The position numbers and the translations under genes are program-made. From Microcaldota archaeon (GTDB lineage: Archaea > Micrarchaeota > Micrarchaeia > Micrarchaeales > Micrarchaeaceae), in assembly GCA_021816895.1 (NCBI GenBank), contig JAKAWW010000001.1, forward strand, positions 681,067 through 745,066: 64,000 bases of DNA. Direction: 5' to 3'. A model generated the notes under the pieces. The model searched no databases and was not told the origin of the DNA. It saw only the letters and a list, made by a program, of their open reading frames with translations. Shown piece by piece: positions 8,359-42,770 of the stretch (its first letter is position 1; each line of letters begins with the position of its first letter).

Positions 8359-9414
8359 ATGGGCATGACGCATAAATACTTAGGCAAGGAAGAGTTGGGC
8401 AAGCAGTTGATAGAGGCAGCTAAAGCCGGAGATATAGAGAACCTGAAAAGATTACTTGAGCAGGGGGCAGGGGCAAACGCGCGATACTATTATAGGAAAA
8501 TGGCGCTGATAGGGGCCGCATATGAAGGGCATCTTGACGCTGTAAAGCTTCTTGTTGAAAAAGGAGCAGATGTAAACGCAAGGGACAAAGATGGATGGAC
8601 GGCGATGATGTGGGCTGCAGTTGTCAGGCACTTTGATGTTGTAAAGTTTCTTGTTGATAATGGAGCAGATGTAAACGCAAGGAGTTACAGTGGATGGACG
8701 GCGATGATAATGGCTGCATATAATGGGCAGCTTGATGTTATAGGGTATCTTATTGAGTATGGGGCAAAAATAGATGCAAAGGGCAAAGGAGATGGATTGA
8801 CGGCGCTGATGGGGGCTGCAGAAAATGGGCATCTTGACGCCGTGAAGCTTCTTGTTGAGCATGGTGCAAAAGTAAACGCAAGGGACAACATTGGATGGAC
8901 GGCGATGATGTGGGCCGCATTAAACGGATATCTTGATGTTGTAAAGTATCTTGCGGAGCATGGAGCAGATGTAAACGCAAAAGATGATGATGGATGGACT
9001 GTACTGATGATAGCTGCAGCGCATATGCGGCTTGATGTTGTAAAGCTTCTTGTCGAGTGTGGAGCAAAAGTAAACGCAAGGGACAACAATGGATGGACCG
9101 CGCTGATGTGGGCTGCAGTTGAAAGTAGCCTTGATGCTGTGGAGTATCTTGCTGAACATGGAGCCGAGATTGACGCAAGGGATTATAGAGGGAGGACAGC
9201 TGCGATGATTGCAAGGGAGAACGGTCGCAAAGATATTGCAGACTATTTGGGTTCCTATTTAGATTCGTTGGCACACGTCAAAAAGAGAATAGATAGCGCA
9301 GGAAAAAGCAATGGTAGCGGTTTAGAGCTGAAGCCAGAGCTAAGTGGTCTTTTGAGAACCAGAGAAGAGCAGGGATACATTATAGCAAAATATGGTGTAA
9401 GCTATGGCGTATAG
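8359..9414 (+). CDS. Ankyrin-repeat protein A1
   Basis: First gene of the array, with 9 ankyrin units and a class III tail. ATG 8365 aligns with the starts of the other heads (MTHKYLGKEELGK), so the two codons from ATG 8359 may not be used. The second unit is atypical (Y-Y-Y-R-K-M-A-L-I-G-A-A). Units 3 and 4, with A-V-V-R-H-F-D-V-V-K-F and M-I-M-A-A-Y-N-G, closely match those of B17 on the far side of the array. The end reads KYGVSYGV and overlaps A2 by 11 nt. Confidence 0.95.
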   Translation: MGMTHKYLGKEELGKQLIEAAKAGDIENLKRLLEQGAGANARYYYRKMALIGAAYEGHLDAVKLLVEKGADVNARDKDGWTAMMWAAVVRHFDVVKFLVDNGADVNARSYSGWTAMIMAAYNGQLDVIGYLIEYGAKIDAKGKGDGLTALMGAAENGHLDAVKLLVEHGAKVNARDNIGWTAMMWAALNGYLDVVKYLAEHGADVNAKDDDGWTVLMIAAAHMRLDVVKLLVECGAKVNARDNNGWTALMWAAVESSLDAVEYLAEHGAEIDARDYRGRTAAMIARENGRKDIADYLGSYLDSLAHVKKRIDSAGKSNGSGLELKPELSGLLRTREEQGYIIAKYGVSYGV

Positions 9415-10033
9415 CAAAAAGGAACTGAATGAGCGATTGAGAGAGGCAGCGCAAGCAGGAGACATAGAGAATGTAAAAAGGTTACTCGGGCTTGGAGCAG
9501 AGGCAGACGCGAAAGACAAAGATGGATGGACGGCAATGATGGATGCTGCAGGATCTGGGTATCTTGATGTTGTAAAGCTTCTTGTCGAGAGTGGAGCAAA
9601 AATAAACGCAAGGGACAAATATGGATGGACGGCGATGATAAATGCCGCTTATTGGGGGCGTCTTGATGTTGTCAAGTTCCTTGTTGAAAAGAAGGCAGAG
9701 GTAGACGCAAGGGACAATGAAGGATGGACTGCACTAATGAGGGCCGCATCGAATGGACACTTTGATGTTGCAAAGTTTCTTGTTGATAATGGAGCAGATC
9801 CGGGCGCAAAGAACAATGAAGGGAAGACAGCTGCGACGATTGCAAGAGAGAGAGGCCACAAAGAGGTTGCAGATTTCTTGGATTTGTTGGCATGGGTTAA
9901 AGAGAAAACGGATAGCATAGGAAGAATCGATGGCAGAAGTTTAGAGCTGAAGCCAGAGCTAAGTGGTCTTTTGAGAACCAGAGAAGAGCAGGGATACATT
10001 ATAGCAAAATATGGTGTAAGCTATGTGGTATAA
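9404..10033 (+). CDS. Ankyrin-repeat protein A2
   Basis: A five-unit protein of 209 residues, the commonest size class. The head (MAYSKKELNERLREAAQAG) is unlike most others. The last 26 or so residues, including LRTREEQGYIIAKYGVSY, and the DNA that encodes them are the same as in A1, while the preceding linker differs, so the 3' end was copied as a block. Confidence 0.95.
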   Translation: MAYSKKELNERLREAAQAGDIENVKRLLGLGAEADAKDKDGWTAMMDAAGSGYLDVVKLLVESGAKINARDKYGWTAMINAAYWGRLDVVKFLVEKKAEVDARDNEGWTALMRAASNGHFDVAKFLVDNGADPGAKNNEGKTAATIARERGHKEVADFLDLLAWVKEKTDSIGRIDGRSLELKPELSGLLRTREEQGYIIAKYGVSYVV

Positions 10034-10565
10034 AAAACCGAGCAAAGAGGAACTGAACGCACAGCTGATAGAGGCAGCGGAAGCCGGAAATATAAAGAAT
10101 GTAAAAAAGTTACTTAAGCAGGGAGCTGAGGTAGATGCAAGGGACAACTATGGATGGACGGCGCTGATGCGAGCTGCAATGTGGGGGCATCTTGATGTTG
10201 TGAAGTTCCTTGCTGAGCTGGGAGCGGATGTAAACGCAAGGGACAAATTGGGATGGACGGCGCTGATGCGAGCTGCAATGTGGGGACATCTTGATGTTGC
10301 AAAGTTTCTTGTTGATAATGGGGCAGATCTGAGCGCAATGAACAATGAAGGGAAGACAGCTGCGACGATTGCAAGAGAAGATTATCAATACGATATTGCA
10401 GACTATTTGGATCATTTGGATTCGTTGGCACGGGTTAAAGAGAGGATAGATAGTGTAAGAAAAAGCAATGGTAGCGGTTTAGAGCTGAGGCAAGAGATAA
10501 GGGACATTTTGAGAACCGGAAAAGAGCAGGAATACAGTATAACAAAACATGGTGTGAGTTATTGA
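10023..10565 (+). CDS. Ankyrin-repeat protein A3, shortened at its last codons
   Basis: Shortest standard member, with 4 units. Units 2 and 3 are nearly identical (GWTALMRAAMWGHLDV), a recent 99-bp duplication. The tail is class III-like. The protein stops right after GVSY with TGA, two residues early, because the sequence at the junction changed from TATG to TATT; this also removes the ATG of A4. Confidence 0.92.
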   Translation: MWYKKPSKEELNAQLIEAAEAGNIKNVKKLLKQGAEVDARDNYGWTALMRAAMWGHLDVVKFLAELGADVNARDKLGWTALMRAAMWGHLDVAKFLVDNGADLSAMNNEGKTAATIAREDYQYDIADYLDHLDSLARVKERIDSVRKSNGSGLELRQEIRDILRTGKEQEYSITKHGVSY

Positions 10566-11295
10566 GAATAAAGAAACAAGCAAGGAAAAACTGGACGAGC
10601 AGATGATAGATGCAGCGAAAGCAGGGAATATAGAAGGTGTGAAAAGGCTCCTTGAGTATGGTGCTGAGGTAGACGCGAGGGATAACAAGGGATGGACAGC
10701 GATGATGCTTGCTGCATGGAATGGGCATCTTGATGTTGTGAGGCTTCTCGTTGAAAAAGGAGCGGATGTAAATGCAACGGAGAACGATGGACGGACTGCA
10801 CTGAGGTGGGCTGCGTGGATGGGGCATCTTGATATCGTGGAGCTTCTTGTCGATAAAGGAGCAGATGTAAACGCAACAGACAACTATGGGTGGACGCCGA
10901 TGCTGTGGGCTGCAAGTTGGGGGGATCTTGCTGTTATGAGATTTCTTGTTGAGCATGGAGTTGATGTAGACGCGAAAGACAAAAATGGAGCGACAGCGAT
11001 GATGATGGCTGCGTGGAATGGGCATCTTTATATTGTGACGTTTCTTGTTGAGCAGGGAGCGGATCCCAGCATAGAGAACAATGAAGGGAAGACTGCAGCG
11101 ATGATTGCAAGAGTAAACGGTCACAAAGAGGTTGCAGACTATTTGGATCCATTGACACAGTTTAAGGAGAGGGTGAATAGCACAGGAAAAGGCAATGATG
11201 GCAGTGGTTTAGAGCTGAAATCAGGGATAAGAAGCATTCTGAGAACTGGATATGAGTATAATGCAGCAAAACATGGTGTAAGCTATGTGGTATAA
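10561..11295 (+). CDS. Ankyrin-repeat protein A4 with lost ATG
   Basis: Six units and a class I tail ending KHGVSYVV. Alignment to other heads places the first codon at ATT 10561 (followed by E-N-K-E-T-S-K-E-K-L-D-E-Q), where all intact junctions have ATG; the first in-frame ATG is 10603, 14 codons later and inside the first helix. Start at ATT would be rare; start at 10603 would trim the head. One unit has T-P-M-L-W in place of T-A-M-M-W. Confidence 0.88.
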   Translation: MENKETSKEKLDEQMIDAAKAGNIEGVKRLLEYGAEVDARDNKGWTAMMLAAWNGHLDVVRLLVEKGADVNATENDGRTALRWAAWMGHLDIVELLVDKGADVNATDNYGWTPMLWAASWGDLAVMRFLVEHGVDVDAKDKNGATAMMMAAWNGHLYIVTFLVEQGADPSIENNEGKTAAMIARVNGHKEVADYLDPLTQFKERVNSTGKGNDGSGLELKSGIRSILRTGYEYNAAKHGVSYVV

Positions 11296-11914
11296 AAAAA
11301 CGAGCAAGGAAGAACTGGACAGGCAAATGATAGATGCAGCGAAAGCAGGAGACGTAAAAAGTGTGAAAAGATTACTAGAGCAAGGAGCGGATGTAGACGC
11401 AAGGGACAACTATGGATGGACAGCGGTGATGGGGGCTGCAGATAAAGGGCATCTTGATGTTGTAAAGCTTCTTGTTGGAAAGATGGCAGATGTAAATGCA
11501 AAAGACGAAGAGAAAATGACGGCGCTGATAAGGGCTGCATTGAACGGATATCTTGATATTGTAAAGTTTATTGTTGAAAAGAGAGCAGACGTAAACGCAA
11601 AAACCAGCAACGGATGGACGGCGATAATGTATGCTGCAATGAAAGGATATACTGATGTTGTTAAGTTCCTTGCTGAACAGGGAGCGGATCCGAGTATAGA
11701 AAACGATAGGGATAAGAATGCAGCGATGATTGCAATGGAAAAAGGTCACAAAGAAGTTGCAGACTATTTGGGTTCGTTTACGCAGCAGAAGAAAATAATA
11801 AACAGCATGCGCAAGGATAGCGAGCGCCTTGCGCTCAAACCAGATATACAAAAAATCTTGAGAACAGGGCAGGAGTATAATGCAGCAAGGCGTGGTGTAA
11901 GCTATGTGGCATAA
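11285..11914 (+). CDS. Ankyrin-repeat protein A5
   Basis: Five units, 209 residues, class II tail. Units 2-4 contain the unusual strings LLVGKMADVNAKDEEKMTA and EKRADVNAKTSNGWTA, which recur in B10 about 21 kb away, so a block of roughly 230 bp has moved across the AAA+/VWA core. The capping unit is altered to D-K-N-A-A-M-I-A-M-E. Confidence 0.95.
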   Translation: MWYKKTSKEELDRQMIDAAKAGDVKSVKRLLEQGADVDARDNYGWTAVMGAADKGHLDVVKLLVGKMADVNAKDEEKMTALIRAALNGYLDIVKFIVEKRADVNAKTSNGWTAIMYAAMKGYTDVVKFLAEQGADPSIENDRDKNAAMIAMEKGHKEVADYLGSFTQQKKIINSMRKDSERLALKPDIQKILRTGQEYNAARRGVSYVA

Positions 11915-12533
11915 AACACCAAACAAAGAAAAACTGGACGGTCAGCTTATAAATGCAGCGCAAGCAGGAAACATGAAGAGCGTGAAAAGATTACTAGAGC
12001 AAGGAGCGGACGTAAACGTAAGGGACAACTATGGATGGACGGCGTTGATGCGAGCTGCAATGTGGGGGCATCTTGATGTTGTGAAGTTCCTTGCTGAGCT
12101 GGGAGCGGACGTAAACGCAAGGAATAATGCTGGAGAGACAGCGATGATAAATGCCGCTTATTGGGGGCATCTTGATGTTGTTAAGTTCCTTGCTGAACAG
12201 GGAGCGGATGTAAACGCAAGGGACAACGAAGGATGGACTGTACTAATGAGAGCTGCAGAAGAAGGGCATCGTGATGTTGTTAAGTTCCTTGCTGAGCTGG
12301 GAGCGGATCTGAGTGCAAAGAACGATGAAGGGAAGACAGCTGCGATGCTTGCAAGAGAAAACAGCCGTAAAGAGGTTGCAGACTATTTGGATCCATTGAC
12401 ACAGTTTAAGGAAATAATAGAGAGCACAGGGAAAGGCAATGATGGTTTAGAGCTGAAACCAGGGATAAGAAGCATACTGAGAACGGGGCAGGAGTATAAT
12501 GCAGCAAAACATGGTGTAAGCTATGCAGTATAA
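11904..12533 (+). CDS. Ankyrin-repeat protein A6
   Basis: Five units, class I tail without the Ser-Gly pair (GKGNDGLELK). The head MWHKTPNKEKLDGQLINAAQ is shared exactly with A11. The unit series RAAMWGH, NAGETAMINAAYWGH and RAAEEGH is shared in the same order with B13, so A6 combines a head and a repeat block that occur in two different genes. Confidence 0.95.
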   Translation: MWHKTPNKEKLDGQLINAAQAGNMKSVKRLLEQGADVNVRDNYGWTALMRAAMWGHLDVVKFLAELGADVNARNNAGETAMINAAYWGHLDVVKFLAEQGADVNARDNEGWTVLMRAAEEGHRDVVKFLAELGADLSAKNDEGKTAAMLARENSRKEVADYLDPLTQFKEIIESTGKGNDGLELKPGIRSILRTGQEYNAAKHGVSYAV

Positions 12534-13254
12534 AAAACCGAGCAAAGAGGAACTGGACGAGCAGATGATAGATGCAGCGAAAGTAGGAGACGTAAAAAGT
12601 GTGAAAAGGCTACTAAAGTATGGGGCAGGTGTAGGCGCTAAAGATAACAAAGGAGAGACTGCGATGATGAAAGCTGCGCAATATGGATATCTTGATATTG
12701 TAAAGCTTCTTGTTGAGCACAGGGCAGAGGTAGACACAAGGGACAACGAAGGATGGACGGCGATGGTGTGGGCTGCAGAGGATGGATATCTTAATGTTGT
12801 TAAGTTCCTTATTGAGCATGGAGCTGATGTAGATGCAAGGAGCAACGAAGGATGGACGGCGATGATGGGGGCTGCATGGAACGAACAGGTTGATGTCGTA
12901 AAGCTTCTTTTTGAGCATGGAGCGGATGTAAATGCGAGAGACAACTACTACGGATGGACGGCGCTGATGTGGGCTGCACGGTATGGGAATCTTGATGTCG
13001 TAAAGCTTCTCGTTGAGCATGGAGCGGATCTGAGCTTAAAGGACAATGAAGGCAATATTGCAGCGACGATTGCAAGAGAAAACAGCCGTAAAGAGGTTAT
13101 GGACTATCTAGACCTATTACAGTTAAAGGAGAAAATGAAAAACATAGGAAAAGGTAACGATGGCGGTTCAGCGTTAAGGCCAGAGATAAGAGGCATGTTG
13201 AGAACAGGGCATGAGTACAATACATCAAAGCGTGGTGTAAGCTATGTGGCATAA
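12523..13254 (+). CDS. Ankyrin-repeat protein A7
   Basis: Six units. The head (KPSKEELDEQMIDAAKVG, then KRLLKYGAGVGAKDN) belongs to a sub-type shared with A14 and B20. One unit carries an extra Tyr (D-N-Y-Y-G-W-T). The tail is a drifted class I, with LQLKEKMKNIGKGNDGG and HEYNTSKRGVSYVA. Confidence 0.95.
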   Translation: MQYKKPSKEELDEQMIDAAKVGDVKSVKRLLKYGAGVGAKDNKGETAMMKAAQYGYLDIVKLLVEHRAEVDTRDNEGWTAMVWAAEDGYLNVVKFLIEHGADVDARSNEGWTAMMGAAWNEQVDVVKLLFEHGADVNARDNYYGWTALMWAARYGNLDVVKLLVEHGADLSLKDNEGNIAATIARENSRKEVMDYLDLLQLKEKMKNIGKGNDGGSALRPEIRGMLRTGHEYNTSKRGVSYVA

Positions 13255-14089
13255 AAAACCGAGCAATGAAAAACTGGACGGGCAGCTGATATATGCAGCA
13301 AGAGTAGGAGACGTAGAAAGGGCAAAAAGGCTGCTGGAGCATGAGGCGGAAGTAGACGCAAGGGACAACAATGGATGGACTGCGCTGATGCGAGCTGCAG
13401 GTAGTGGGTTTCTTGATGTCGTAAAGCTTCTTGTTGAGCAGGGAGCTGATGTAAATGCGAAAGACAAAAAAGGAGCGACAGCGATGATACTTGCTGCAGA
13501 GAATGGGCATCTTGATGTTGTGAGGTTTCTTTATGAGCATGGAGCAGATGTAGACGCAAGAGATAACTATGGAATGACAGCGATGATGTGGGCTGCATTT
13601 TGGGGGCATCTGGATGTTGTGAAGTTTCTTCTTGTTGAGAGTAAAGCGGATGTAAACGCGAAAGATAACGATGGAGAGACGGTGATGATGGAGGCTGCAG
13701 AAGAAGGGCATCTGGATGTTGTGAAGTTTCTTGTTGAGCATGGAGTTGATGTAAACGCGAAAGACAACAATGGAGCGACGGTGATGATGCAGGCTGCATT
13801 TTGGGGGCATCTTGATGTTGTAAAGCTTCTTGTTGAGCATGGGGCGGATCTGAGTGCAAAGGACAATGAAGGCAATATTGCAGCGACGATTGCAAGAGAA
13901 AACAGTCACAACGATATTGCAGACTATTTGGATTCCTATTTAGATCCGTTAACACGGGTTAAAGAGAGAATGGATAGTGTAGGAAAAAACGATGGCAGTG
14001 GTTTAGAGCTGAAACCAGGGATAAGAAGCATTCTGAGAACTGGATATGAGTATAATGCAGCAAGGCACGGTGTAAGCTATGCAGTATAG
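13244..14089 (+). CDS. Ankyrin-repeat protein A8
   Basis: Seven units; one has a single-residue insertion (K-F-L-L-V-E-S-K-A-D). Two adjacent units use T-V-M-M in place of T-A-M-M. The linker has the class III DSYLDPLTRVKERMDS string but the distal tail is class I (GLELKPGIRSILRTGYEYNA), a hybrid. Confidence 0.95.
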   Translation: MWHKKPSNEKLDGQLIYAARVGDVERAKRLLEHEAEVDARDNNGWTALMRAAGSGFLDVVKLLVEQGADVNAKDKKGATAMILAAENGHLDVVRFLYEHGADVDARDNYGMTAMMWAAFWGHLDVVKFLLVESKADVNAKDNDGETVMMEAAEEGHLDVVKFLVEHGVDVNAKDNNGATVMMQAAFWGHLDVVKLLVEHGADLSAKDNEGNIAATIARENSHNDIADYLDSYLDPLTRVKERMDSVGKNDGSGLELKPGIRSILRTGYEYNAARHGVSYAV

Positions 14090-15602
14090 CAAAGAGGAAC
14101 TGAACGGACAGCTTATATCTGCAGCAATAGTAGGAGACGTAAAAAGTGTGAAAAGGCTACTAAAGCCTGGTGTGGATGTAAACGCGAAAGACAATGACGG
14201 AATGACGGCACTGATGTGGGCTGCACGGTATGGGTATCTTAATGCTGTGAAGTTTCTTATGGAAAACGGAGCAGATGTAAACGCAAGAGACAACTATGAG
14301 TGGACGGCAATGATGCGGGCTGCAGAAAACGGGCATCTTGATGTTGTAAAGTACCTTGTAGAGCAGGGGGCAAAGGTAAATGCAATAGATATCAACGGTG
14401 ATATGGCAATGATAAAGGCTGCTTTTGGGGGACATATGGATATTATGAAGTTCCTTGCTGAGCATGGAGCTGAAGTAGACGCGAAAAATAGGTATGGATG
14501 GACTGCGCTGATGGAGGCTGTAAGATATGGACAGCTTGATGCTGTGAGGTTTCTTGCGGGGCATGGGGCAAAGGTAGACGCAAGGAACAACGATGGAATG
14601 ACGGCGATGATGCTGGCCGCGCGGAATGGACAGCTAGATATTGTAAAGTTTCTTGTTGAGCATGGGGCAGAGGTAGATGCAAGGAACAATGATGGAAGGG
14701 CGGCTCTGATGTGGGCTGCAGAGAATGGGTATCTTGATGTTGTAAAGCTTCTTTTTGAGCATGGGGCAAAGGTAAATGCAAGGGGCAATGATGGAGCGAC
14801 GGCGATGATGTGGGCTGCATATAATGGAGATCTTGATGTTGTAAAGTACCTTGTAGAGCAGGGGGCAAAGGTAAATGTAAAGGGTAAAGAGGGAGAGACG
14901 GCGATGATGCGGGCTGCACGATATGGAAATCTTGATATTGTGAGGTTTCTTGTTGAGCGTGGAGAGGGAGTAGACGCAAAAGACAAAAATGGAGCGACGG
15001 CGATGATGAATGCTGCATTGTATGGACATCTTGACGTTGTAAAATTTCTTATAGAGCAGGGAGCGGATGTAAACGCGAAAGGTAAAAAGAGATGGACGGC
15101 GATGATGTGGGCTGCAAGGGATGGATATGTTGATATTGTGGGGTTTCTTGCGGGGCATGGGGCAAAGGTAGACGCAAGGAACGACAATGGAATGACGGCG
15201 ATGATGCTAGCTGCATGGAACAAACATATTGATATTGTGAAGCTTCTTGTTGAGCATGGGGCGAAAGTAGACGCGAAAGATAAAAAGAGATGGACGGCGA
15301 TGATGGGGGCTTCATTGAATGGACATCTTGATATAGTGAAGTTCCTTGTTGAGCATGGGGCGGATCTGAGCGTAAAGGACAATAAAGGGAATACTGCAGT
15401 AATGATTGCAAGAGAAAACAGCCGTAAAGGGGTTGCAGACTATTTGGATCCATTAACACAATTTAAGGAAAGAATAGAGAACACAGGGAAAGGCAATGAT
15501 GGCAGTGGTTTAGAGCTGAAACCAGAGATAAGAGGCATGTTGAGGACCGAAAAAGGACATGAGTATAATGTAGCAAGGCATGGTGTGAGCTATGCAGTAT
15601 AA
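14079..15602 (+). CDS. Ankyrin-repeat protein A9 (longest, 14 units)
   Basis: At 507 residues and 14 units this is the largest member; it exceeds the five-unit size by almost exactly nine 33-residue steps. The head is two residues shorter than usual (MQYSKEELNGQLISAA). Pairs of units separated by several others resemble each other (two with AGHGAKVDARN, two with KKRWTAMM), which indicates growth by duplication of multi-unit blocks. Class I tail with a four-residue insertion (LRTEKGHEYN). Confidence 0.95.
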   Translation: MQYSKEELNGQLISAAIVGDVKSVKRLLKPGVDVNAKDNDGMTALMWAARYGYLNAVKFLMENGADVNARDNYEWTAMMRAAENGHLDVVKYLVEQGAKVNAIDINGDMAMIKAAFGGHMDIMKFLAEHGAEVDAKNRYGWTALMEAVRYGQLDAVRFLAGHGAKVDARNNDGMTAMMLAARNGQLDIVKFLVEHGAEVDARNNDGRAALMWAAENGYLDVVKLLFEHGAKVNARGNDGATAMMWAAYNGDLDVVKYLVEQGAKVNVKGKEGETAMMRAARYGNLDIVRFLVERGEGVDAKDKNGATAMMNAALYGHLDVVKFLIEQGADVNAKGKKRWTAMMWAARDGYVDIVGFLAGHGAKVDARNDNGMTAMMLAAWNKHIDIVKLLVEHGAKVDAKDKKRWTAMMGASLNGHLDIVKFLVEHGADLSVKDNKGNTAVMIARENSRKGVADYLDPLTQFKERIENTGKGNDGSGLELKPEIRGMLRTEKGHEYNVARHGVSYAV

Positions 15603-16419
15603 AGAAACAAGCAAGGAAGAGCTGAACGGGCAGATGATAGATGCAGCTAAAGGTGGATACATAAAGAGTGTGAAAAGGCTATTGGAGTGTGGGGCAGAAG
15701 TAGATGCAAGGGACAACAACGGAGAGACGGCGATGATGGGGGCTACGCGGAATGGGCATCTTTATATTGTGAAGTTTCTTGTTGAGCAGGGAGCGGAGGT
15801 AGATGCAAGGAACAAAGATGGAGATACGGCGATGATGCTAGCTGCATGGGATGGACATCTTGATATAGTGAGACTTCTCGTTGAAAAAGGAGCAGAGGTA
15901 GATGCAAGGGACAACGAAGGATGGACGGCGCTGATATGGGCTATATTGAAGGGGCATCTTGATGTCGTGAAGTTTCTTGTTGAGCAGAGAACTGATGTAA
16001 ACGCGAAAGACAACTATGGGAAGACAGCAATGATGCTGGCTGCATGGAAGGGGCATCTTGATATTGTTAAGTTCCTTGTTGAGCATGAGGCGGATGTAAA
16101 CGCAAGGAGCAACGAGGGATGGACAGCGATTATGTGGGCGGCATGGAAGGGGCGCCTTTATGTTGTGAAGCTTCTTGTTGAGCATGGGGCGGATCTGAGC
16201 GTAAAGGACAATAAAGGGAAAACTGCGGCGATGATTGCAAGAGAAAACAGCCGTAAAGGGGTTGCAGACTATTTGGATCCATTAACACAATTTAAGGAAA
16301 GAATAGAGAACACAGGGAAAGGCAATGATGGTTTAGATCTGAAACCAGGAATAAGAGGCATTCTGAGAACCGGATATGAGTATAATGCAGCAAAACATGG
16401 TGTAAGCTATGTGGCATAA
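15592..16419 (+). CDS. Ankyrin-repeat protein A10
   Basis: Seven units. The cap and linker (ENSRKGVADYLDPLTQFK and ERIENTGKGNDG) match A9 almost base for base, including the otherwise rare Gly in RKG, so the 3' portion was copied from its upstream neighbour or the reverse. Head sub-type MQYKETSKEELNGQMIDAA with G-G-Y-I-K-S, shared with A12. Confidence 0.95.
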   Translation: MQYKETSKEELNGQMIDAAKGGYIKSVKRLLECGAEVDARDNNGETAMMGATRNGHLYIVKFLVEQGAEVDARNKDGDTAMMLAAWDGHLDIVRLLVEKGAEVDARDNEGWTALIWAILKGHLDVVKFLVEQRTDVNAKDNYGKTAMMLAAWKGHLDIVKFLVEHEADVNARSNEGWTAIMWAAWKGRLYVVKLLVEHGADLSVKDNKGKTAAMIARENSRKGVADYLDPLTQFKERIENTGKGNDGLDLKPGIRGILRTGYEYNAAKHGVSYVA

Positions 16420-30777: not shown

Positions 30778-30822
30778 AGCAACGAGCAAAGAGGAATTGA
30801 ACGCACAGCTGATAGAGGCAGC
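30605..30822 (+). repeat. Perfect 218-bp repeat across the B7/B8 junction
   Basis: Second copy of 26550-26767, offset 4055 bp. Confidence 0.9.
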
Positions 30823-34316: not shown

Positions 34317-35034
34317 AAAACCGAGTAAAGAAGCATTGAACGCATGGTTTATAGAGGCAGCGAAAACCGGGAATATAGAGAGCCTGAAAAGATTACTCGA
34401 TCAAGGAGCGGATGTAAACACAAGGGATAACGATAGATGGACGGCACTGACGGGGGCCGCAGTATGGAAGCGGCTTGATGCTGTAAAGTTTCTTGCTGAA
34501 AAAGGAGCAGATGTAAACGCAAGGGACAACTATGGATGGACTGCGTTGATGCGAGCTGCAATGTGGGGGCATCTTGATGTTGTAAAGCTTCTTGTTGAGC
34601 AGGGAGCAAAAGTAAACGCAAGGAATAATGCTGGAGAGACGGCGATGATAAATGCCGCTTATTGGAGGCATCTTGATGTAGTGAAGTTTCTTGCTGAGCG
34701 CGGGGCGAAGGTAAATGCAAGGGACAAAGATGGATGGACAGCACTAATGAGAGCTGCAGAAGAAGGGCATCTTGATGTTGTCAAGTTCCTTGCTGAGCTG
34801 GGAGCGGATCTGAGTGCAAAGAACAATGAAGGGAAGACGGTGATGATGATTGCAAGAGAAAACAGCCGTAAAGAGGTTGCAGACTATTTGGATCCATTGA
34901 CACAGTTTAAGGAAAGAATAGAGAGCACAGGGAAAGGCAATGATAGTTTAGAGCTGAAACAGGGGATAAGGAACATTTTGAGAACGGGGCAGGAGTATAC
35001 TGCAGCAAGGCATGGTGTAAGCTATGCGGTATAA
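34306..35034 (+). CDS. Ankyrin-repeat protein B13
   Basis: Six units. The head differs from the norm (K-E-A-L-N-A-W-F-I-E-A-A). Units 3 to 5 follow A6 (RAAMWGH, then NAGETAMINAAYW, then RAAEEGH), with AELGADLSAKNNEGKT before the cap as in A6. Class I tail GKGNDSLELKQG. Confidence 0.95.
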   Translation: MNYKKPSKEALNAWFIEAAKTGNIESLKRLLDQGADVNTRDNDRWTALTGAAVWKRLDAVKFLAEKGADVNARDNYGWTALMRAAMWGHLDVVKLLVEQGAKVNARNNAGETAMINAAYWRHLDVVKFLAERGAKVNARDKDGWTALMRAAEEGHLDVVKFLAELGADLSAKNNEGKTVMMIARENSRKEVADYLDPLTQFKERIESTGKGNDSLELKQGIRNILRTGQEYTAARHGVSYAV

Positions 35035-35863
35035 AACACCAAGCAAAGAGGAATTGAACGCACAGCTGATAGAGGCAGCAGAAGCCGGAAATATAGAGAA
35101 TGTAAAAAAGTTACTTAAGCAGGGAGCTAAAGTAAACGCAAGGGACAACGAAGGATGGACGGCGATGATGTGGGCTGCAGAGAATGGGGATCTTGATGTT
35201 GTGAAGCTTCTTGTTGAGCGTGGAGCGGAGGTAGACGCGAAAGACAAAGAGAGAGAGACGGCGACGATGCAGGCTGCATGGAATGGACATCTTTATATCG
35301 TGAAGTTTTTTGTTGATAATGGAGCAGATGTAAACGCAAGGGACAGTGAGGGATTGACTGTGATGATGTGGGCTGTATTAGGGGGATATCTTGATGTTGT
35401 GAAGTTTCTTGCGGAGCATGGAGCTGAGATAGACGCAAAAGATGAAGGGGGATGGACGGCGATGATGATAGCTGCACAGCATGGGCGGCTTGATGCTGTA
35501 AATCTTCTTGTTAATCATGGAGCAAAAGTAAACGCAAGGGACGAAGATGAAATGACGGCGATGATGTGGGCTGCATTAGGTGGATACCTTGGTGTTGTAA
35601 AGTTTCTTGCGGAGCATGGAGCTGAGATAGACGCAAGGAATAATAGATGGGAGATTGCAGCGACGATTGCAAGGAAAAAAGGTCACAACGATATTGCAGA
35701 CTATTTGGATCAGTTTACGCAACTTAAAGAAAGGAATGAGAAAATAATAAACAGCATGCGCGAGGATAGTGAGCACCTTACCCTTAAACAAGATATACAA
35801 AGAATCTTGAGAACGGGGCAGGAGTACAATGCAGCAAGACATGGTGTAGGCTATGTGGCATAA
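35024..35863 (+). CDS. Ankyrin-repeat protein B14
   Basis: Seven units; two alternate units both read GGYL-D/G-VVKFLAEHGAEIDA, an internal copy. The cap is unusual (N-N-R-W-E-I-A-A-T-I-A-R-K). Class II tail ending RHGVGYVA: the Ser position is Gly here, again with GGTGT and TATG preserved. Confidence 0.95.
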   Translation: MRYKTPSKEELNAQLIEAAEAGNIENVKKLLKQGAKVNARDNEGWTAMMWAAENGDLDVVKLLVERGAEVDAKDKERETATMQAAWNGHLYIVKFFVDNGADVNARDSEGLTVMMWAVLGGYLDVVKFLAEHGAEIDAKDEGGWTAMMIAAQHGRLDAVNLLVNHGAKVNARDEDEMTAMMWAALGGYLGVVKFLAEHGAEIDARNNRWEIAATIARKKGHNDIADYLDQFTQLKERNEKIINSMREDSEHLTLKQDIQRILRTGQEYNAARHGVGYVA

Positions 35864-36683
35864 AAAACCGAGCAAAGGAAAACTGGACGGTCAGCTTATA
35901 AATGCAGCTAATGCAGGAAACATAAAAAGTGTGAAAAGATTACTAGAGCAAGGGGCAGATGTAGACGCGAAAGATAACACTGGAGAGACGGCGATGATAG
36001 GGGCTGCGTGGAATGGACATCTTGATGTTGTAAAGCTTCTTGTTGAGCATGGAGCAGATCTAAACGCGAAAGACAAAAGTGGAGCGACAGCAATGATATG
36101 GGCTGCATTGAATGGGCAGCTTGATGTTGTAAAGCTTCTCGTTGAAAAAGGAGCGGATGTAAACGCAATGGATAATGATGGAGAGACAGCGATGATGGGA
36201 GCTTCATTGAAGGGACATCTTTATATCGTGAAGCTTCTCGTTGAACATGGGGCGGAAGTAGACGCAAGGAACAATGATGGAGAGACGGCGATTATGAGAG
36301 CTGCATGGAATGGACATCTTGAGGTTGTAAAGCTTCTTGTTAAGCATGGAGCAGATGTAAACGCGAAAAGCAACATAGGATGGACGGCGACGATGTCGGT
36401 TATATTGAAGGGGCAACTTGATGTTGTAAAGCTTCTCATGGAGTGTGGGGCGGATCCCAGCATAGAGAACAATGAAGGGAAGACTGCCACGATGCTTGCA
36501 AGAGAAAGCGGTCACAACGATATTGCAGACTATTTGGATCCATTGACACAGTTTAAGGAGAGGATGAATAGCACAGGGAAAAGCAATGATGGTAGTTTAG
36601 CGCTGAAACCAGAGATAAGAGGTATTTTGAGAACTGAACAGGAGTATAATGTAGCAAAGCGTGGTGTAAGCTATGTTATTTAG
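35853..36683 (+). CDS. Ankyrin-repeat protein B15
   Basis: Seven units; head sub-type KLDGQLINAANAGNIKSV related to A6/A11. The 3' 413 bp are base-identical to the end of B20. Class I tail GKSNDGSLALKPE, end KRGVSYVI. A unit has the rare T-M-S-V-I-L-K-G-Q. Confidence 0.95.
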   Translation: MWHKKPSKGKLDGQLINAANAGNIKSVKRLLEQGADVDAKDNTGETAMIGAAWNGHLDVVKLLVEHGADLNAKDKSGATAMIWAALNGQLDVVKLLVEKGADVNAMDNDGETAMMGASLKGHLYIVKLLVEHGAEVDARNNDGETAIMRAAWNGHLEVVKLLVKHGADVNAKSNIGWTATMSVILKGQLDVVKLLMECGADPSIENNEGKTATMLARESGHNDIADYLDPLTQFKERMNSTGKSNDGSLALKPEIRGILRTEQEYNVAKRGVSYVI

Positions 36684-36831
36684 GCGCGTAACACGTGAAG
36701 AAAAGTTGAATAATAAGATGATAGAGGCAGCAAAAGCAGGGGACATAAAATGGATAAAAAAGCTACTGGAGCAAGGAGGGGAAGTAGATGCAAGGGACAA
36801 TGGCAGGAGGACGGCGATGGTGTGGGCTGCA
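36271..36831 (+). repeat. Perfect 561-bp repeat across the B15/B16 junction
   Basis: No difference from 40005-40565 (B20/B21 junction) was found in a base-by-base comparison. It covers about two and a half ankyrin units, the cap, tail, overlap and head plus first half-unit of the next gene. Confidence 0.93.
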
Positions 36832-37404
36832 CAGTATGGGAAACTTAATGTTGTAAAGCATCTTGTTGAGCAGGGGGCGGAAGTAGATGTAAGGGACAAA
36901 GATGGAAGAACGGCGATGATGTGGGCTGCATTGAATGGGCAGCTTGATGTTGTAAAGCATCTTGTTGAGCGTGGAGCTGAGGTAGATGCAAAGGACAAAG
37001 ATGGGTGGACGGCGATGATGTGGGCTGCAGCAGACGGATATCTTGATGTTGTAAAGTATCTTGCGGAGCATGGAGCTGAGATAGACGCAGGGAATAATGG
37101 ATGGACGGCGACGATGTGTGCTGTGCAACATAGGAAGACTGATGTTGTGAAGTATCTTGCGGAGCATGGAGCGGATCTGAGCTTAAAGAACGGTGAAGGG
37201 AAGACTGCTGAAATGCTTGCAAGAGAAAGAGGCTATAAGGAGATTGTAGACTATTTAGATACATTGACACAGTTTAAAGATAGGACGGAAGGCATAGGAA
37301 AAACCAATGGCAGTGGTTTAGAGCTGAAACCAGGGATAAGAAGCATGCTGAGAACGGGGCAGGAGTACAATGCAGCAAGGCATGGTGTAAGCTATGTGGC
37401 ATAA
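36673..37404 (+). CDS. Ankyrin-repeat protein B16
   Basis: Six units. Head MLFRRVTREEKLNNKMIEAA is shared only with B21. One unit is a residue short (A-G-N-N-G-W-T-A-T-M). Its cap reads K-T-A-E-M-L-A-R-E-R-G and its tail D-T-L-T-Q-F-K-D-R-T-E-G-I-G-K; both recur in B18 and B22. Confidence 0.95.
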   Translation: MLFRRVTREEKLNNKMIEAAKAGDIKWIKKLLEQGGEVDARDNGRRTAMVWAAQYGKLNVVKHLVEQGAEVDVRDKDGRTAMMWAALNGQLDVVKHLVERGAEVDAKDKDGWTAMMWAAADGYLDVVKYLAEHGAEIDAGNNGWTATMCAVQHRKTDVVKYLAEHGADLSLKNGEGKTAEMLARERGYKEIVDYLDTLTQFKDRTEGIGKTNGSGLELKPGIRSMLRTGQEYNAARHGVSYVA

Positions 37405-38038
37405 AACACCAAGCAAAGAGGAATTGAACGCGCAGTTGATAGAGGCAGCAAAAGCAGGGAGAGTTAGAAGAGTTAAAAGATTACTAAAGCATGGGGCAGA
37501 ATTAGATTCTAGAGATGAGTACTTTAGAAAAACAGCGCTGATGCTGGCTGCGGAGAGTAGAGAGCTTGGTGTTGTGAAGTTTCTTGTTGATAATGGAGCA
37601 GATGTAAACGCAAGGGACAAAGATGGATGGACGGCGCTGATGCGGGCTGCAGTTGTCAGGCACTTTGATGTTGTGAAGTTTCTTGTTGATAATGGAGCAG
37701 ATGTAAACGCAAGGGACAACTATGGATGGACGGCGATGATAATGGCTGCATATAATGGGCGGCTTGATGTTGTGAAGTTTCTTGCAGAGCAGGAAGCGGA
37801 TCTGAGCATAGAAAATATTGAAGGGAAAACCGCCGCGAGGATTGCAAGAGAAAGCGGCCAAAATGTTGTTGCAGAATATTTGGATTCGCTTCTAGAACTT
37901 AAGGAAAGGAATGATAAAATAGTAAACAGCATACGCGAGGATAGCGAGCGCCTTACCCTTAAACAAGATATACAAAGAATCTTGAGAACGGGGCAGGAGT
38001 ATAATGCAGCAAAACATGGTGTAAGCTATGCAGTATAA
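37394..38038 (+). CDS. Ankyrin-repeat protein B17
   Basis: Five units. The first repeat has extra residues (S-R-D-E-Y-F-R-K-T-A-L-M) and the head a basic variant (G-R-V-R-R-V-K-R). Units 3 and 4 match A1. Class II tail with D-S-L-L-E-L-K-E-R-N-D-K-I-V-N-S-I. Confidence 0.95.
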   Translation: MWHKTPSKEELNAQLIEAAKAGRVRRVKRLLKHGAELDSRDEYFRKTALMLAAESRELGVVKFLVDNGADVNARDKDGWTALMRAAVVRHFDVVKFLVDNGADVNARDNYGWTAMIMAAYNGRLDVVKFLAEQEADLSIENIEGKTAARIARESGQNVVAEYLDSLLELKERNDKIVNSIREDSERLTLKQDIQRILRTGQEYNAAKHGVSYAV

Positions 38039-38660
38039 AAAACCGAACAAAGAGGAGCTGAACGAGCAGCTGATAGAGGCAGCGAAAGCAGGAGACATAG
38101 AGAATGTAAAAAGGTTACTTGAGCAAGGGGCAGATGTAAACGCAAGGGACAAAGATGGATGGACAACGATAATGAATGCCGCAAATAATGGACACCTTGA
38201 TATCGTGAAGCTTCTCGTTGAGCATGGGGCGGAAGTAGACGCAAGGAACAACTATGGAGAGAAAGCGCTGATGGGGGCTGCGTGGAATGGGCATCTTGAT
38301 GTTGTGAAGCTTCTCGTTGAGCATGGAGCTGATGTAAACGCGAAAAGCAACACAGGAGAGATGGCGATGATGTGGGCTGCAGGGAATGGACATCTTGATG
38401 TTGTGAGGTTTCTTGTTGAGCATGGAGCTGATACAAGCGTAGAGAACAAAGAAGGGAAGACTGCTGAAATGCTTGCAAGAGAAAGAGGCCATAAGGAGAT
38501 TGTAGACTATTTAGATACATTGACACAGTTTAAAGATAGGACGGAAGGCATAGGTAAAAGCAATGGCAGCAGTTTAGCGCTGAAACCAGAGATAAGAAAC
38601 ATGTTGAGAACAGAGCAGGAGTATAATGCAGCAAGGCACGGTGTAAGCTATGTGGCATAA
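38028..38660 (+). CDS. Ankyrin-repeat protein B18
   Basis: Five units. Contains D-G-W-T-T-I-M-N-A-A-N-N-G, which recurs in the next gene B19 (as Y-G-W-T-T-I-M-N). Tail as in B16 but with SSLALKPE and LRTEQEYN. Confidence 0.95.
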   Translation: MQYKKPNKEELNEQLIEAAKAGDIENVKRLLEQGADVNARDKDGWTTIMNAANNGHLDIVKLLVEHGAEVDARNNYGEKALMGAAWNGHLDVVKLLVEHGADVNAKSNTGEMAMMWAAGNGHLDVVRFLVEHGADTSVENKEGKTAEMLARERGHKEIVDYLDTLTQFKDRTEGIGKSNGSSLALKPEIRNMLRTEQEYNAARHGVSYVA

Positions 38661-39393
38661 AACACCAAGCAAAGAGGAATTGAACGCGCAGTTGATAGAG
38701 GCAGCGAAAGCAGGAGACATAGAGAACCTGAAAAGATTACTTGAGCAGGGAGCGGATGTAGACGCAAGGAACAACAAAGGGGAGACCGCGCTGATGTGGG
38801 CTGCATTTTGGGGGCATCTTGATGTTGTGAAGCTTCTCGTTGAGCAAGGGGCAGATGTAAACGCAAGGGATAACTATGGATGGACAACGATAATGAATGC
38901 CGCAAATAATGGACACCTTGATATCGTGAAGCTTCTCGTTGAGCATGGGGCGGATGTAGACGCAAGGAACAACAAATGGGAGACTGCGCTGATGGTGGCT
39001 GCGTGGAACGGGCATCTTGATGTTGTAAAGTATCTTGCAGAGCATGGAGCAGATGTAAACGCGAAAAGCAATACAGGAAAGACGGCGATGATGCGGGCTG
39101 CAGGGAAAGGTCACTCGGATGTTGTGAGGTTTCTTGTTGATAACGGGGCAGATCTGAGCGCAACGAACAATGAAGGGAGGACAGCTACGATGATTGCAGG
39201 GGAAAACTATCAATATGATATTGCAGACTTTTTGGATTCCTATTTGGATTCGTTGGCACGGGTTAAAGAGAGAATAGATAAAATAGGAAAAAGCAATGGC
39301 AGCAGTTTAGAGTTGAGGCCAGAGATAAAGAACATTTTGAGAACGGGGCAGGAGTATAATATAACAAAACATGGTGTAAGCTATGTTGTATAA
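38650..39393 (+). CDS. Ankyrin-repeat protein B19
   Basis: Six units, class III tail (DSYLDSLARVKERIDKIG) with EYNITKHGVSYVV. The cap carries E-N-Y-Q-Y-D-I-A-D-F-L, otherwise seen in A3 (E-D-Y-Q-Y-D-I-A-D-Y-L), another link between arrays A and B. Confidence 0.95.
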   Translation: MWHKTPSKEELNAQLIEAAKAGDIENLKRLLEQGADVDARNNKGETALMWAAFWGHLDVVKLLVEQGADVNARDNYGWTTIMNAANNGHLDIVKLLVEHGADVDARNNKWETALMVAAWNGHLDVVKYLAEHGADVNAKSNTGKTAMMRAAGKGHSDVVRFLVDNGADLSATNNEGRTATMIAGENYQYDIADFLDSYLDSLARVKERIDKIGKSNGSSLELRPEIKNILRTGQEYNITKHGVSYVV

Positions 39394-40417
39394 AAAACCA
39401 AGCAAGGAAGAACTGGACGGGCAGATGATAGAGGCAGCGGAAGTAGGAGACGTAAAAAGTGTGAAAAGGCTACTAAAGTATGGGGCAGGTGTAGACGCGA
39501 AAGACAACAGAGGAAAGACGGCGATGATGTGGGCTGCAGAGAACGGACATCTTGATGTTGTGAAGCTTCTTGTTGAGCAAGGAGCAAAAGTAAACGCAAA
39601 AAATAATAATAGAGAGACGGCGATGATGAAGGCTGCAGAGTATGGACAGCTTTTTATTGTGAAGTTTCTTGTGGAGCAGGGAGCTGAGGTTGACGCGAAA
39701 GACGACAGTGAAAAGACGGCGATGATGCGGGCTGCAGAGAATGGGCATCTTGATGTTGTGGAGTATCTTGCTGAACATGGGGCTGAGGTAGACGCAAGGG
39801 ACAAAGAGAGAATGACGGCGATGATGCTAGCTCTGGCTACATGGAAGGAGCATCTTGATACTGTAAAGCTTCTTGTTGAGCATGGAGCAAATGTAAACGC
39901 AAGGGACAATGATGGATGGGCAGCGATGATGTGGGCTGCATGGAATGGACATCTTGAGGTTGTAAAGTTTCTTGTTGAGAAGGGAGCGGATGTAAACGCA
40001 AGGGACAATGATGGAGAGACGGCGATTATGAGAGCTGCATGGAATGGACATCTTGAGGTTGTAAAGCTTCTTGTTAAGCATGGAGCAGATGTAAACGCGA
40101 AAAGCAACATAGGATGGACGGCGACGATGTCGGTTATATTGAAGGGGCAACTTGATGTTGTAAAGCTTCTCATGGAGTGTGGGGCGGATCCCAGCATAGA
40201 GAACAATGAAGGGAAGACTGCCACGATGCTTGCAAGAGAAAGCGGTCACAACGATATTGCAGACTATTTGGATCCATTGACACAGTTTAAGGAGAGGATG
40301 AATAGCACAGGGAAAAGCAATGATGGTAGTTTAGCGCTGAAACCAGAGATAAGAGGTATTTTGAGAACTGAACAGGAGTATAATGTAGCAAAGCGTGGTG
40401 TAAGCTATGTTATTTAG
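39383..40417 (+). CDS. Ankyrin-repeat protein B20
   Basis: Nine units. 5' part like A14, 3' part identical to B15, so it is a chimera of the two lineages. One unit has an insertion (M-M-L-A-L-A-T-W-K-E-H-L-D-T-V). Confidence 0.95.
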   Translation: MLYKKPSKEELDGQMIEAAEVGDVKSVKRLLKYGAGVDAKDNRGKTAMMWAAENGHLDVVKLLVEQGAKVNAKNNNRETAMMKAAEYGQLFIVKFLVEQGAEVDAKDDSEKTAMMRAAENGHLDVVEYLAEHGAEVDARDKERMTAMMLALATWKEHLDTVKLLVEHGANVNARDNDGWAAMMWAAWNGHLEVVKFLVEKGADVNARDNDGETAIMRAAWNGHLEVVKLLVKHGADVNAKSNIGWTATMSVILKGQLDVVKLLMECGADPSIENNEGKTATMLARESGHNDIADYLDPLTQFKERMNSTGKSNDGSLALKPEIRGILRTEQEYNVAKRGVSYVI

Positions 40418-40565
40418 GCGCGTAACACGTGAAGAAAAGTTGAATAATAAGATGATAGAGGCAGCAAAAGCAGGGGACATAAAATGGATAAAAAAGCTAC
40501 TGGAGCAAGGAGGGGAAGTAGATGCAAGGGACAATGGCAGGAGGACGGCGATGGTGTGGGCTGCA
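40005..40565 (+). repeat. Perfect 561-bp repeat across the B20/B21 junction
   Basis: Second copy of 36271-36831, offset 3734 bp. Differences begin immediately outside both ends. Confidence 0.93.
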
Positions 40566-41138
40566 AGGGATGGATATGTTGATATTGTGAAGTTTCTTGT
40601 TGAGCAAGGAGCTGAGGTTGACGCAAGAAACAACTATGGATGGACGGCGATGATATGGGCTGCATCGAACGGGCAGCTTGATATTGTGAGGCTTCTCGTT
40701 AAACAGGGGGCTGATGTAAACGCGAAAGACAACACGGAAGAGACAGCACTAATGTGGGTTGCCGCTTGGGGGCATCTTGATGTTGTGAAGTTTCTCGTTG
40801 AACAGGGAGCTGATGTAAACGTGAAAGACAACGATGGAGAGACGGCACTGATGTGGGCTATAGTCAATTGGCAGCTTGATGTTGTGGGGTATCTTGTGGA
40901 GCAGGGAGCGGATCTGAGTATAGAGAATATTGAAGGGAAGACTGCAGCGATGATTGCAAAGGAAAGCGATCACAACGATATTGCAGACTATTTGGATTCG
41001 TTTACGCAACATAAGAAAATAATAAACAGCATGTGCGAGGATAGCGAGCGCCTTACCCTTAAACAGGATATACAGAGAATCTTGAGAACGGGGCAGGAGT
41101 ATAATATAACAAAACATGGTGTAAGCTATGCGGCATAA
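40407..41138 (+). CDS. Ankyrin-repeat protein B21
   Basis: Six units. Head and first half-unit identical to B16; the last unit and cap follow B9; class II tail with Q-H-K-K-I-I-N-S-M-C-E-D and end KHGVSYAA. At least three sources are visible in one gene. Confidence 0.95.
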   Translation: MLFRRVTREEKLNNKMIEAAKAGDIKWIKKLLEQGGEVDARDNGRRTAMVWAARDGYVDIVKFLVEQGAEVDARNNYGWTAMIWAASNGQLDIVRLLVKQGADVNAKDNTEETALMWVAAWGHLDVVKFLVEQGADVNVKDNDGETALMWAIVNWQLDVVGYLVEQGADLSIENIEGKTAAMIAKESDHNDIADYLDSFTQHKKIINSMCEDSERLTLKQDIQRILRTGQEYNITKHGVSYAA

Positions 41139-41958
41139 AACACCAAGCAAAGAAGAATTGAACGCACGGTTGATAGAGGCAGCGAATGCAGGAGATATAG
41201 AGAATGTAAAAAGGTTACTTGAGCAAGGGGCAGATGTAAACGCGAAAGACGACTATGGAGAGACGGCAATGATGGGGGCTGCGCGGAATGGGAATCTTGA
41301 TTTTGTGGAATATCTTGTTGAGCAAGGGGCGGAGGTAGATGCAAGGAACAACTATGGAGATAAAGCGCTGATGTGGGCTGCATCGAACGGGCATCTTGAT
41401 GTTGTTAAGTTCCTTGCTGAGCATGGGACTGAGGTAGATGCAAGGAGCAACTATGGATGGACCGCGCTGATGTGGGCTGCATCGAACGGGCATCTTGATG
41501 TTGTTAAGTTCCTTGCTGAGCATGGGACTGAGGTAAACGCGAAAAGCAACACAGGATGGACTGCGATGATGTGGGCTGCAGAAGAAGGGCATCTTGATGT
41601 TGTGAAGCTTCTCGTCGAGCATGGAGCAGATGTAAACGCGAAAGACAACGATGGATGGACTGCACTAATGAGGGCCGCAGATAACGGGCATCTTGGTGTT
41701 GTGAAGTATCTTGCGGAGCATGGAGCGGATCTGAGCTTAAAGAACGGTGAAGGGAAGACTGCTGAAATGCTTGCAAGAGAAAGAGGCTATAAGGAGATTG
41801 TAGACTATTTAGATACATTAACACAGTTTAAAGATAGGACGGAAGGCATAGGAAAAACCAATGGCAGTGGTTTAGAGCTGAAACCAGGGATAAGAAGCAT
41901 GCTGAGAACGGGGCAGGAGTACAATGCAGCAAGGCACGGTGTAAGCTATGTGGCATAA
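41128..41958 (+). CDS. Ankyrin-repeat protein B22
   Basis: Seven units; units 3 and 4 (K/T-A-L-M-W-A-A-S-N-G-H-L-D-V-V-K-F-L-A-E-H-G-T-E-V) are recent 99-bp tandem copies. Cap and tail follow B16 (K-T-A-E-M-L; F-K-D-R-T-E-G-I-G-K-T-N). Confidence 0.95.
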   Translation: MRHKTPSKEELNARLIEAANAGDIENVKRLLEQGADVNAKDDYGETAMMGAARNGNLDFVEYLVEQGAEVDARNNYGDKALMWAASNGHLDVVKFLAEHGTEVDARSNYGWTALMWAASNGHLDVVKFLAEHGTEVNAKSNTGWTAMMWAAEEGHLDVVKLLVEHGADVNAKDNDGWTALMRAADNGHLGVVKYLAEHGADLSLKNGEGKTAEMLARERGYKEIVDYLDTLTQFKDRTEGIGKTNGSGLELKPGIRSMLRTGQEYNAARHGVSYVA

Positions 41959-42691
41959 AACACCAAGCAAAGAGGAATTGAACGCGCAGTTGATAGAGGC
42001 AGCAAAAGCAGGAGACATAGAAAGGATAAGAAGGCTGCTGGAACAGGAGGAGGATGTAAACGCGAAAGACAACGATGGATGGACTGTACTGATGTGGGCT
42101 GCACAGTATGGGCATCTTGATGTTGCAAGGCTTCTTGTTGAGCACAGGGCAGAGGTAGACGCAAGGGACAAAAACGGAGAGACGGCGATGATGGAGGCTG
42201 CAAGGGATGTATATGTTGATATTGTGAAGTTTCTTGTTGCGCATGGGGCAAAGGTAGACACAAAGAACAACGATGGAATGACGGCGATGATGCGGGCTGC
42301 ATTTTGGGGGCATCTTGATGTTGTAAAGCTTCTTATGGATCAGGATGCGGATGTAAACACAAGGGACAAAGATGGATGGACTGCGATGATGATGGCTGCG
42401 TGGAATGGGCATCTTGATGTTGTTAAGTTCCTTGCGGAGCATGGAGCGGATCTCAGCATAGAGAACAATGAAGGGAAAACCGCCGCGACGATTGCAAGGG
42501 AAAACGGTCACAAAGATATTACAGACTATTTGGATTCCTATTTAGATTCGTTAATACGGGTTAAAGAGAGAATAGATAGTGTAGGAAAAACCAATGGCGG
42601 TAGTTTAGAGCTGAAACCAGGAATAAGAAGTATACTGAGAACGGGGCAGGAGTATAATATAACAAAACATGGTGTAAGCTATGCGGTATAA
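41948..42691 (+). CDS. Ankyrin-repeat protein B23 (last complete gene)
   Basis: Six units. The first unit has L-L-E-Q-E-E-D-V-N in place of the usual GAD loop. Class III tail with SLIRVKERIDSVGKTNGG and EYNITKHGVSYAV; the GVSY end and overlapping ATG are intact although the next gene is only a remnant. Confidence 0.95.
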   Translation: MWHKTPSKEELNAQLIEAAKAGDIERIRRLLEQEEDVNAKDNDGWTVLMWAAQYGHLDVARLLVEHRAEVDARDKNGETAMMEAARDVYVDIVKFLVAHGAKVDTKNNDGMTAMMRAAFWGHLDVVKLLMDQDADVNTRDKDGWTAMMMAAWNGHLDVVKFLAEHGADLSIENNEGKTAATIARENGHKDITDYLDSYLDSLIRVKERIDSVGKTNGGSLELKPGIRSILRTGQEYNITKHGVSYAV

Positions 42692-42770
42692 AAAACCTAA
42701 CAAAGAGGAGCTGAACGAGCAGCTGATAGAGGCAGCGAATGCGTGCGCTGCACAAATTGTATTGATGTAA
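42681..42770 (+). pseudogene. Remnant ankyrin gene B24 (head only)
   Basis: The overlapping ATG opens a normal head, MRYKKPNKEELNEQLIEAAN, that loses similarity after Ala-Asn and stops after CAAQIVLM, 29 codons in all. The head is almost that of B18. It marks the broken right end of the array, next to ordinary chromosomal genes. Confidence 0.9.

Follow-up and report, generated by a model that had tools for sequence, protein, structure and literature searches.

The 64,000-nucleotide stretch analysed here (the window) corresponds to bases 681067-745066 of the single-contig, 928,770-bp genome of a Microcaldota archaeon. It carries an array of ankyrin-repeat (ANK) genes arranged around the genes of an AAA+ ATPase and a VWA-domain protein (Table 1). 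The open reading frame (ORF) listing gives 38 intact ANK genes, all on the plus strand, in two blocks. An earlier sequence-only reading had described a one-strand array with the AAA+ and VWA genes between two blocks, which ORFs and Pfam matches confirm. It had also counted 39 ANK genes, the last of which proves to be a truncated start, and about 250 repeat units, for which the repeat profile gives 234 matches. The array proteins contain 33-residue ANK repeats, and the 150 Pfam Ank matches that were scored, of 230 candidates in the whole genome, all lie inside the array region. A gap of 145 bp separates block 1 from the AAA+ gene, and 7 bp separate the VWA gene from block 2. The ANK bank and the AAA+/VWA pair together occupy ~34 kb, some 3.7% of this reduced 0.93-Mb genome; because so large a share is devoted to a single bank and motor, selection on the bank is probably strong.

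Table 1 Features of the ANK array and the AAA+/VWA pair (window coordinates).
Feature	Position	Strand	Evidence
ANK block 1, 15 genes	8359..20498	+	ORFs, Pfam Ank matches; mostly 11-bp overlaps
Double CobS/NorQ/MoxR-type AAA+ ATPase, 813 aa	20644..23085	+	PF07728 x2, motifs, phrog_249
VWA protein, 630 aa, metallopeptidase-like N-domain, acidic linker, C-terminal MIDAS VWA	23103..24995	+	PF00092, alignments, Foldseek
HEAAH motif of the metallopeptidase-like domain	23361..23375	+	Alignments
MIDAS DISSS of the VWA domain	24486..24500	+	Alignment
ANK block 2, 23 genes, overlap signature as in block 1	25003..42691	+	ORFs
Truncated 39th ANK gene start (MRYKKPNKEELNEQLIEAANACAAQIVLM*), closes the array	42681..42770	+	ORF reading
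Example junction element GGTGTAAGCTATG: GVSY end of an ANK gene, SD-like GGTG, next start codon	10013..10025	+	

The pair and the ANK genes are linked well beyond the source genome. We sought relatives of both pair proteins in 301 Micrarchaeota genomes and found strong VWA matches only in the source genome (G000), G016, G017, G060 and G061, and AAA relatives in G000, G016, G017, G060 and G015. The pair is thus present, whole or in part, in six of the 301 genomes, which belong to four genera, and an ANK gene or ANK end adjoins it in all six, confirming the association that the sequence-only reading had proposed to check in related archaea. By a rough estimate, chance would give such adjacency in about 1% of cases per genome. 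The gene order is AAA-VWA-ANKx3 in G016, AAA-VWA-ANKx4 in G017 (on two contigs, with the break at a repeat in the VWA linker) and AAA-ANK-VWA-ANKx2 in G060; in G015, AAA is followed by ANK at a contig end. G061 appears to be an exception, but its contig opens inside an ANK end (NGHEETAEAIRKA...AMERIVRK...) with the VWA gene directly after. Accidental adjacency was therefore rejected.

The surroundings of the pair differ between carriers, with at least four different genomic settings. An ABC transporter and alanyl-tRNA synthetase (AlaRS) are the neighbours in the source genome; judged from translations, G016 has an arginine-deiminase-like gene as a neighbour, G017 a PfkB-type kinase, and G060 threonyl-tRNA synthetase, a TnpB-like gene and FtsZ-like genes. 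Four carriers are placeable on an AlaRS tree; they require four changes and have non-carrier sisters. The cassette is patchily distributed and relocated, yet kept together. A three-sequence alignment of the VWA-protein N-domain, run against the GTDB R220 contig set, retrieved one locus, that of G017. In G060, the TnpB-like ORF (L040:4448-5602, identified from its translation) immediately precedes the AAA gene and may be connected with the cassette's relocation there. In the AlaRS searches, the 902-aa archaeal enzyme was matched just weakly and in part by frames of 597-644 aa (G060:C8, G061:C13, G006:C7, G020:C2), which suggests a divergent or replaced alanyl-tRNA synthetase in those relatives.

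A second feature shared across these loci is a C-terminal tail. The regular expression L[KR]xx[IL]xx[IML]LR matches near the C-terminus of all 38 window ANK proteins, and the array consensus is a short basic helix motif, LKPxIRxILR. L1, L9 and R10 of the tail are invariant within the window and its ratio of nonsynonymous to synonymous differences (pN/pS) is 0.38, indicative of purifying selection. Versions of the tail occur in relatives (LKTEFSNVLRR in G016, LKPKMQGILRK in G101, LREGFGEIHKK in G017, MESNIKRLIRG in G060 and, by eye, VKAAMERIVRK in G061). The expression matches 14 of the 15 ANK proteins of G016, G017, G060 and G101; the remaining one, LRKGFGEIRKK, is off at a single position. 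G016 (L033:5840-6709) and G017 (L035:4524-5240) also have tailed ANK genes far outside the AAA/VWA locus, as would fit adaptors acting in trans.

Many Micrarchaeota carry ANK genes but no pair. The sequence-only reading had named independent occurrence of the two components as the sign of an accidental association; pairs regularly lacking ANK genes are not seen, and the tail motif is present in none of 17 sampled ANK ORFs from seven non-carrier genomes. In thirteen of these 17 the frame stops no more than 33 residues past the final repeat match; the ends of the remaining four are unrelated. A tailless protein of 1514 aa with about 28 ANK repeats is encoded in G091 (L041:4001-8545), where no pair was found.

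AlphaFold models give the ANK domain a predicted local distance difference test (pLDDT) score of 97-98. The tail scores below 50 and is unpacked, with a helix over the motif. A helix that is conserved yet unpacked has the look of a docking motif, and it may dock on the AAA+/VWA pair. The same flexibility would suit a different role, in which the ANK proteins are substrates or effectors: the machine would recognise the tail and cleave or release the ANK protein, which then acts alone. A conserved C-terminus on a variable protein beside a metallopeptidase is a known layout, found in the peptide-processing FxSxx-COOH systems linked to MoxR-vWA (PMC7159879), although the peptidase is separate there and not fused to VWA. 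In the array, moreover, it is the ANK contact face that is diversified and not the tail, which suits binders better, and we consider the substrate role unlikely.

The extreme C-terminus has another explanation. Exact 11-bp overlaps occur at no fewer than 33 of 40 gene junctions in the cluster, far from chance. The junction element GGTGTAAGCTATG combines the GVSY near-end of one protein with a Shine-Dalgarno (SD)-like GGTG and the ATG of the next gene; allowing up to one mismatch, it has 32 matches genome-wide, 30 of them in the array. Because the junction also holds the ribosome-binding element and start codon of the following gene, the invariant GVSY is explained as a translational coupling overlap. 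GVSYxx was rejected as a protein tag on these grounds, and the gene that closes block 1 (19515-20498) has lost it. Coupling does not explain LKPxIRxILR, which sits some 12 residues upstream of GVSY, because relatives retain this motif without GVSY. Just 3' of the array, an ORF of 114 aa (42819-43163) has neither a Pfam nor a PHROG match.

The tail is constant; the repeats vary at defined positions. An alignment of 152 repeats shows an almost invariant framework, and the variable positions are 3, 5, 10, 13, 14 and 26. Among close pairs, pN relative to overall pS is 1.15-1.72 at these six positions and below 0.5 at most framework positions. Designed ankyrin repeat proteins (DARPins) are randomised at positions 2, 3, 5, 13, 14 and 26. 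Five of the six variable array positions fall in this set; the chance of such an overlap is ~1.5e-4 (hypergeometric). The variation lies on the contact face of the repeats, in essence the surface with which DARPins bind.

Among 35 genes, only two have the same nearest paralogue for the N-part and the C-part (r = -0.10). Exact shared blocks, the longest of 561 bp, are found preferentially between neighbours, some of them crossing the AAA/VWA genes. This mismatch and the long exact blocks indicate that recombination between paralogues reshuffles the bank. The variability extends across many paralogues whose segments are shuffled, which suggests recombination instead of a diversity-generating retroelement. 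Exact repeats and neighbour-biased sharing, as marks of ongoing recombination, would also be expected of a selfish or neutral expansion in which tandem ANK genes multiplied beside the pair with no joint function. Such an origin appears improbable to us: none of the 38 genes has lost its open frame or its tail motif, purifying selection acts on tail and framework, and relatives retain the linkage with few ANK genes and in different settings.

The AAA+ protein contains two AAA_5 modules (PF07728 x2), whose Walker A motifs lie at residues 198 and 541. Both modules also retain Walker B, sensor 1 and the NEDLWRRF arginines, so that the Walker motifs, sensor 1 and arginine finger characteristic of the CobS/NorQ/CbbQ group are all present. 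Sequence matches are to NorQ, CbbQ and CobS, and the phage CobS family phrog_249 is matched with E=1e-53. The two modules are 61% identical and share an exact 128-bp repeat. The double MoxR ATPase of the sequence-only reading is thus real in the source genome and does not extend to a general trait: because relatives carry a single module, the duplication is specific to the source genome among the genomes seen. A TATA-like ttatatat lies at 20515-20535, ~120 bp upstream of the AAA gene; given this element, the pair and block 2 may have their own promoter.

In the VWA protein, HEAAH occupies residues 87-91 and NVVEDCRIE residues 123-131, and the metal-ion-dependent adhesion site (MIDAS), with DxSxS at residue 462, is intact (DxSxS, T, D). 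The metallopeptidase-like character previously read from the HEAAH motif is borne out at the level of sequence motifs. H, E and H of HEAAH are invariant in five micrarchaeal proteins and a cyanophage 'peptidase', and all micrarchaeal N-domains share HExxH and NxxEDxR[IV]E followed by FPG. With both HExxH and a downstream acidic ligand conserved, as in zinc metallopeptidases (HExxH + E), the protein is a putative peptidase. The top Foldseek matches in the PDB are the NorD VWA domain of NorQD complexes and Rea1-MIDAS, and the top matches include none for the HExxH N-domain itself. The chain ends soon after the VWA domain and no variable effector domain is present C-terminal to it. The VWA linker of G017 is a long GTDEEGT-type repeat that splits the assembly over two contigs (L036:13372-14667 and L034:8235-9473).

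The matches of the AAA+ protein to CobS, NorQ and CbbQ and of the VWA fold to NorD, together with viral homologues annotated CobS/CobT (PMC8651126), could equally describe a CobST/NorQD-like metal chelatase or metal-insertion pair with the ANK proteins as accessory scaffolds. We regard this as very improbable, as no denitrification, Rubisco or NOR gene occurs among the neighbours examined, and such a function leaves the diversified ANK family unexplained. A cobaltochelatase was rejected because CobN (PF02514) is absent from the genome, while the same search is positive in archaeal controls.

Taken together, our data lean towards a system in which shuffled ANK binders with a common docking tail supply one AAA+/VWA metallopeptidase-like machine with many targets. 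AAA+ rings and the VWA protein would form a motor of the NorQD/CobST kind, with a VWA finger in the ring pore, MIDAS on top and the metallopeptidase-like domain attached. The 38 ANK proteins would be cytoplasmic adaptors, and their concave surfaces, diversified at the classical contact positions and recombined, would each recognise a different protein. The conserved basic helix of the flexible tail (LKPxIRxILR) would then dock the loaded adaptor on the motor, which would unfold the bound target and probably cleave or inactivate it. This is close to the single remodelling or proteolytic machine with an evolving adaptor set suggested previously: conserved linkage, shared tail and hypervariable repeats fit that proposal. 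The sequences themselves show the anatomy, the linkage, the conserved tail, the variable repeats, the shuffling and the junction overlaps, whereas tail docking, target binding, remodelling, proteolysis and a role in conflict are inferred from them.

Cultivated Micrarchaeota live with host archaea, which raises the alternative of a host-interaction arsenal: the ANK proteins would be delivered into or onto the host, and the AAA+/VWA pair would recognise the tail and act as a chaperone in export or assembly. Effectors of intracellular bacteria often contain ANK repeats, and the array proteins match such families. By eye, however, the ANK proteins begin with a charged SKEELN-type sequence and have no signal peptide or membrane segment, no secretion genes were recognised next to the array, and we know of no export route with a MoxR/VWA pair. 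We therefore give delivery to the host little weight beside the adaptor system.

Several observations weigh against the adaptor system. The other carriers show only about 2-5 ANK genes, so that a large repertoire is not general. The binding partner of the tail may lie outside the pair. Three tailed ANK genes lie in one place in G101, where the pair was not found; as this assembly is 71% complete, they represent either incompleteness or an exception. The case for peptidase activity is one of motifs, a characterised homologue of the VWA protein's N-terminal domain was not found, and the VWA model is only of moderate quality (pLDDT 67). Over all repeat pairs the ratio at variable positions is ~0.9 against 0.44 in the framework, values that would fit relaxed constraint as well as positive selection. 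Searches of PADLOC and NCBIfam returned nothing beyond generic AAA or ANK matches, and a known defence family was rejected on this basis.

As to purpose, we infer that a role in conflict, with viruses, mobile elements or in contact with a host archaeon, is the most likely, because of the patchiness, relocation, many paralogues, shuffling and contact-site variation. A tentative extension, which we hold to be possible and less probable than the adaptor system itself, is that recombining hypervariable ankyrin receptors with a docking tail direct one ATP-driven metallopeptidase machine at many foreign or host proteins, a counterpart, at the protein level, of a guide array. If the adaptor system is right, it would represent a new modular route by which a prokaryote gives a single AAA+ machine many targets, and it would tie a virus-type CobST-like pair to protein targeting. 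The diversified ankyrin bodies, which vary naturally at their contact sites, could be used as a library of native binders.

Among known systems, the pair is closest to NorQD and to the viral CobST-like pairs of cyanophages (T4-GC 150/146, phrog_249/phrog_459), group 2.2 jumbo phages and haloarchaeal tailed viruses. The viral pairs likewise have a CobS-type AAA+ gene near a VWA gene and an N-domain with HExxH and NxLEDARIE followed by [YF]PG (PMC7824862; PMC8651126); they have been named CobST (PMC8651126) and, in jumbo phages, described as a MoxR and metallopeptidase-vWA chaperone pair (PMC7824862). The 'peptidase' of cyanophage S-SSM5, whose gene lies two genes upstream of cobS, carries these motifs together with a VWA domain. 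The combination that marks the viral pairs, an HExxH + NxxEDxRIE domain fused to VWA with a CobS gene nearby, is found in the array, and the shared motifs, VWA domain and CobS-type AAA make the micrarchaeal pair a cellular relative of the viral group. In contrast to the array, the cyanophage order is VWA protein then AAA, the N-domain is ~31% and the AAA ~26% identical to the micrarchaeal versions, the S-SSM5 stretch compared contains no annotated ANK genes, and the roles proposed for the viral pairs are virion assembly or B12 synthesis. A viral origin of the cassette was rejected, as phage records (searched by VWA) and viral contigs hold no full relative and give distant CobS matches only; the plasmid search gave generic VWA or AAA matches only.

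NorQ-NorD, CbbQ-CbbO and Rea1 (midasin) likewise combine a MoxR-type AAA+ with a VWA-MIDAS partner, and in NorQD a VWA finger sits in the ring pore with MIDAS thought to face the client (PMC13036017, PMC9976466). Each of these serves one client, whereas the array has no adjacent client gene and many tailed ANK proteins. The MoxR-vWA ternary conflict systems share with it a MoxR/vWA core and an adjacent, rapidly evolving third component (PMC7159879, PMC8195603). Their third component is VMAP, iSTAND, iSTAND2 or TERNS3 and they occur in multicellular bacteria; here it is an ANK family, with no effector on the VWA protein, in a DPANN archaeon. Ankyrin is not mentioned in PMC7159879, and neither VMAP, iSTAND nor another described third component was recognised among the cluster genes and scanned neighbours.

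There is also a functional analogy with DARPins and with F-box or BTB substrate receptors, in which a variable binding domain and a constant docking segment serve one machine. F-box and BTB receptors are eukaryotic adaptor repertoires of this kind. No homology is implied, and the array differs in that its genes are clustered and recombine, and in belonging to an archaeon with a 0.93-Mb genome. An ankyrin/MoxR-VWA system was not found in the literature searched. MoxR/VWA pairs, viral CobST-like pairs, ANK expansions and MoxR-vWA conflict systems are each known; their combination with a common tail and a recombining bank is new, and possibly represents a categorically new targeting repertoire.

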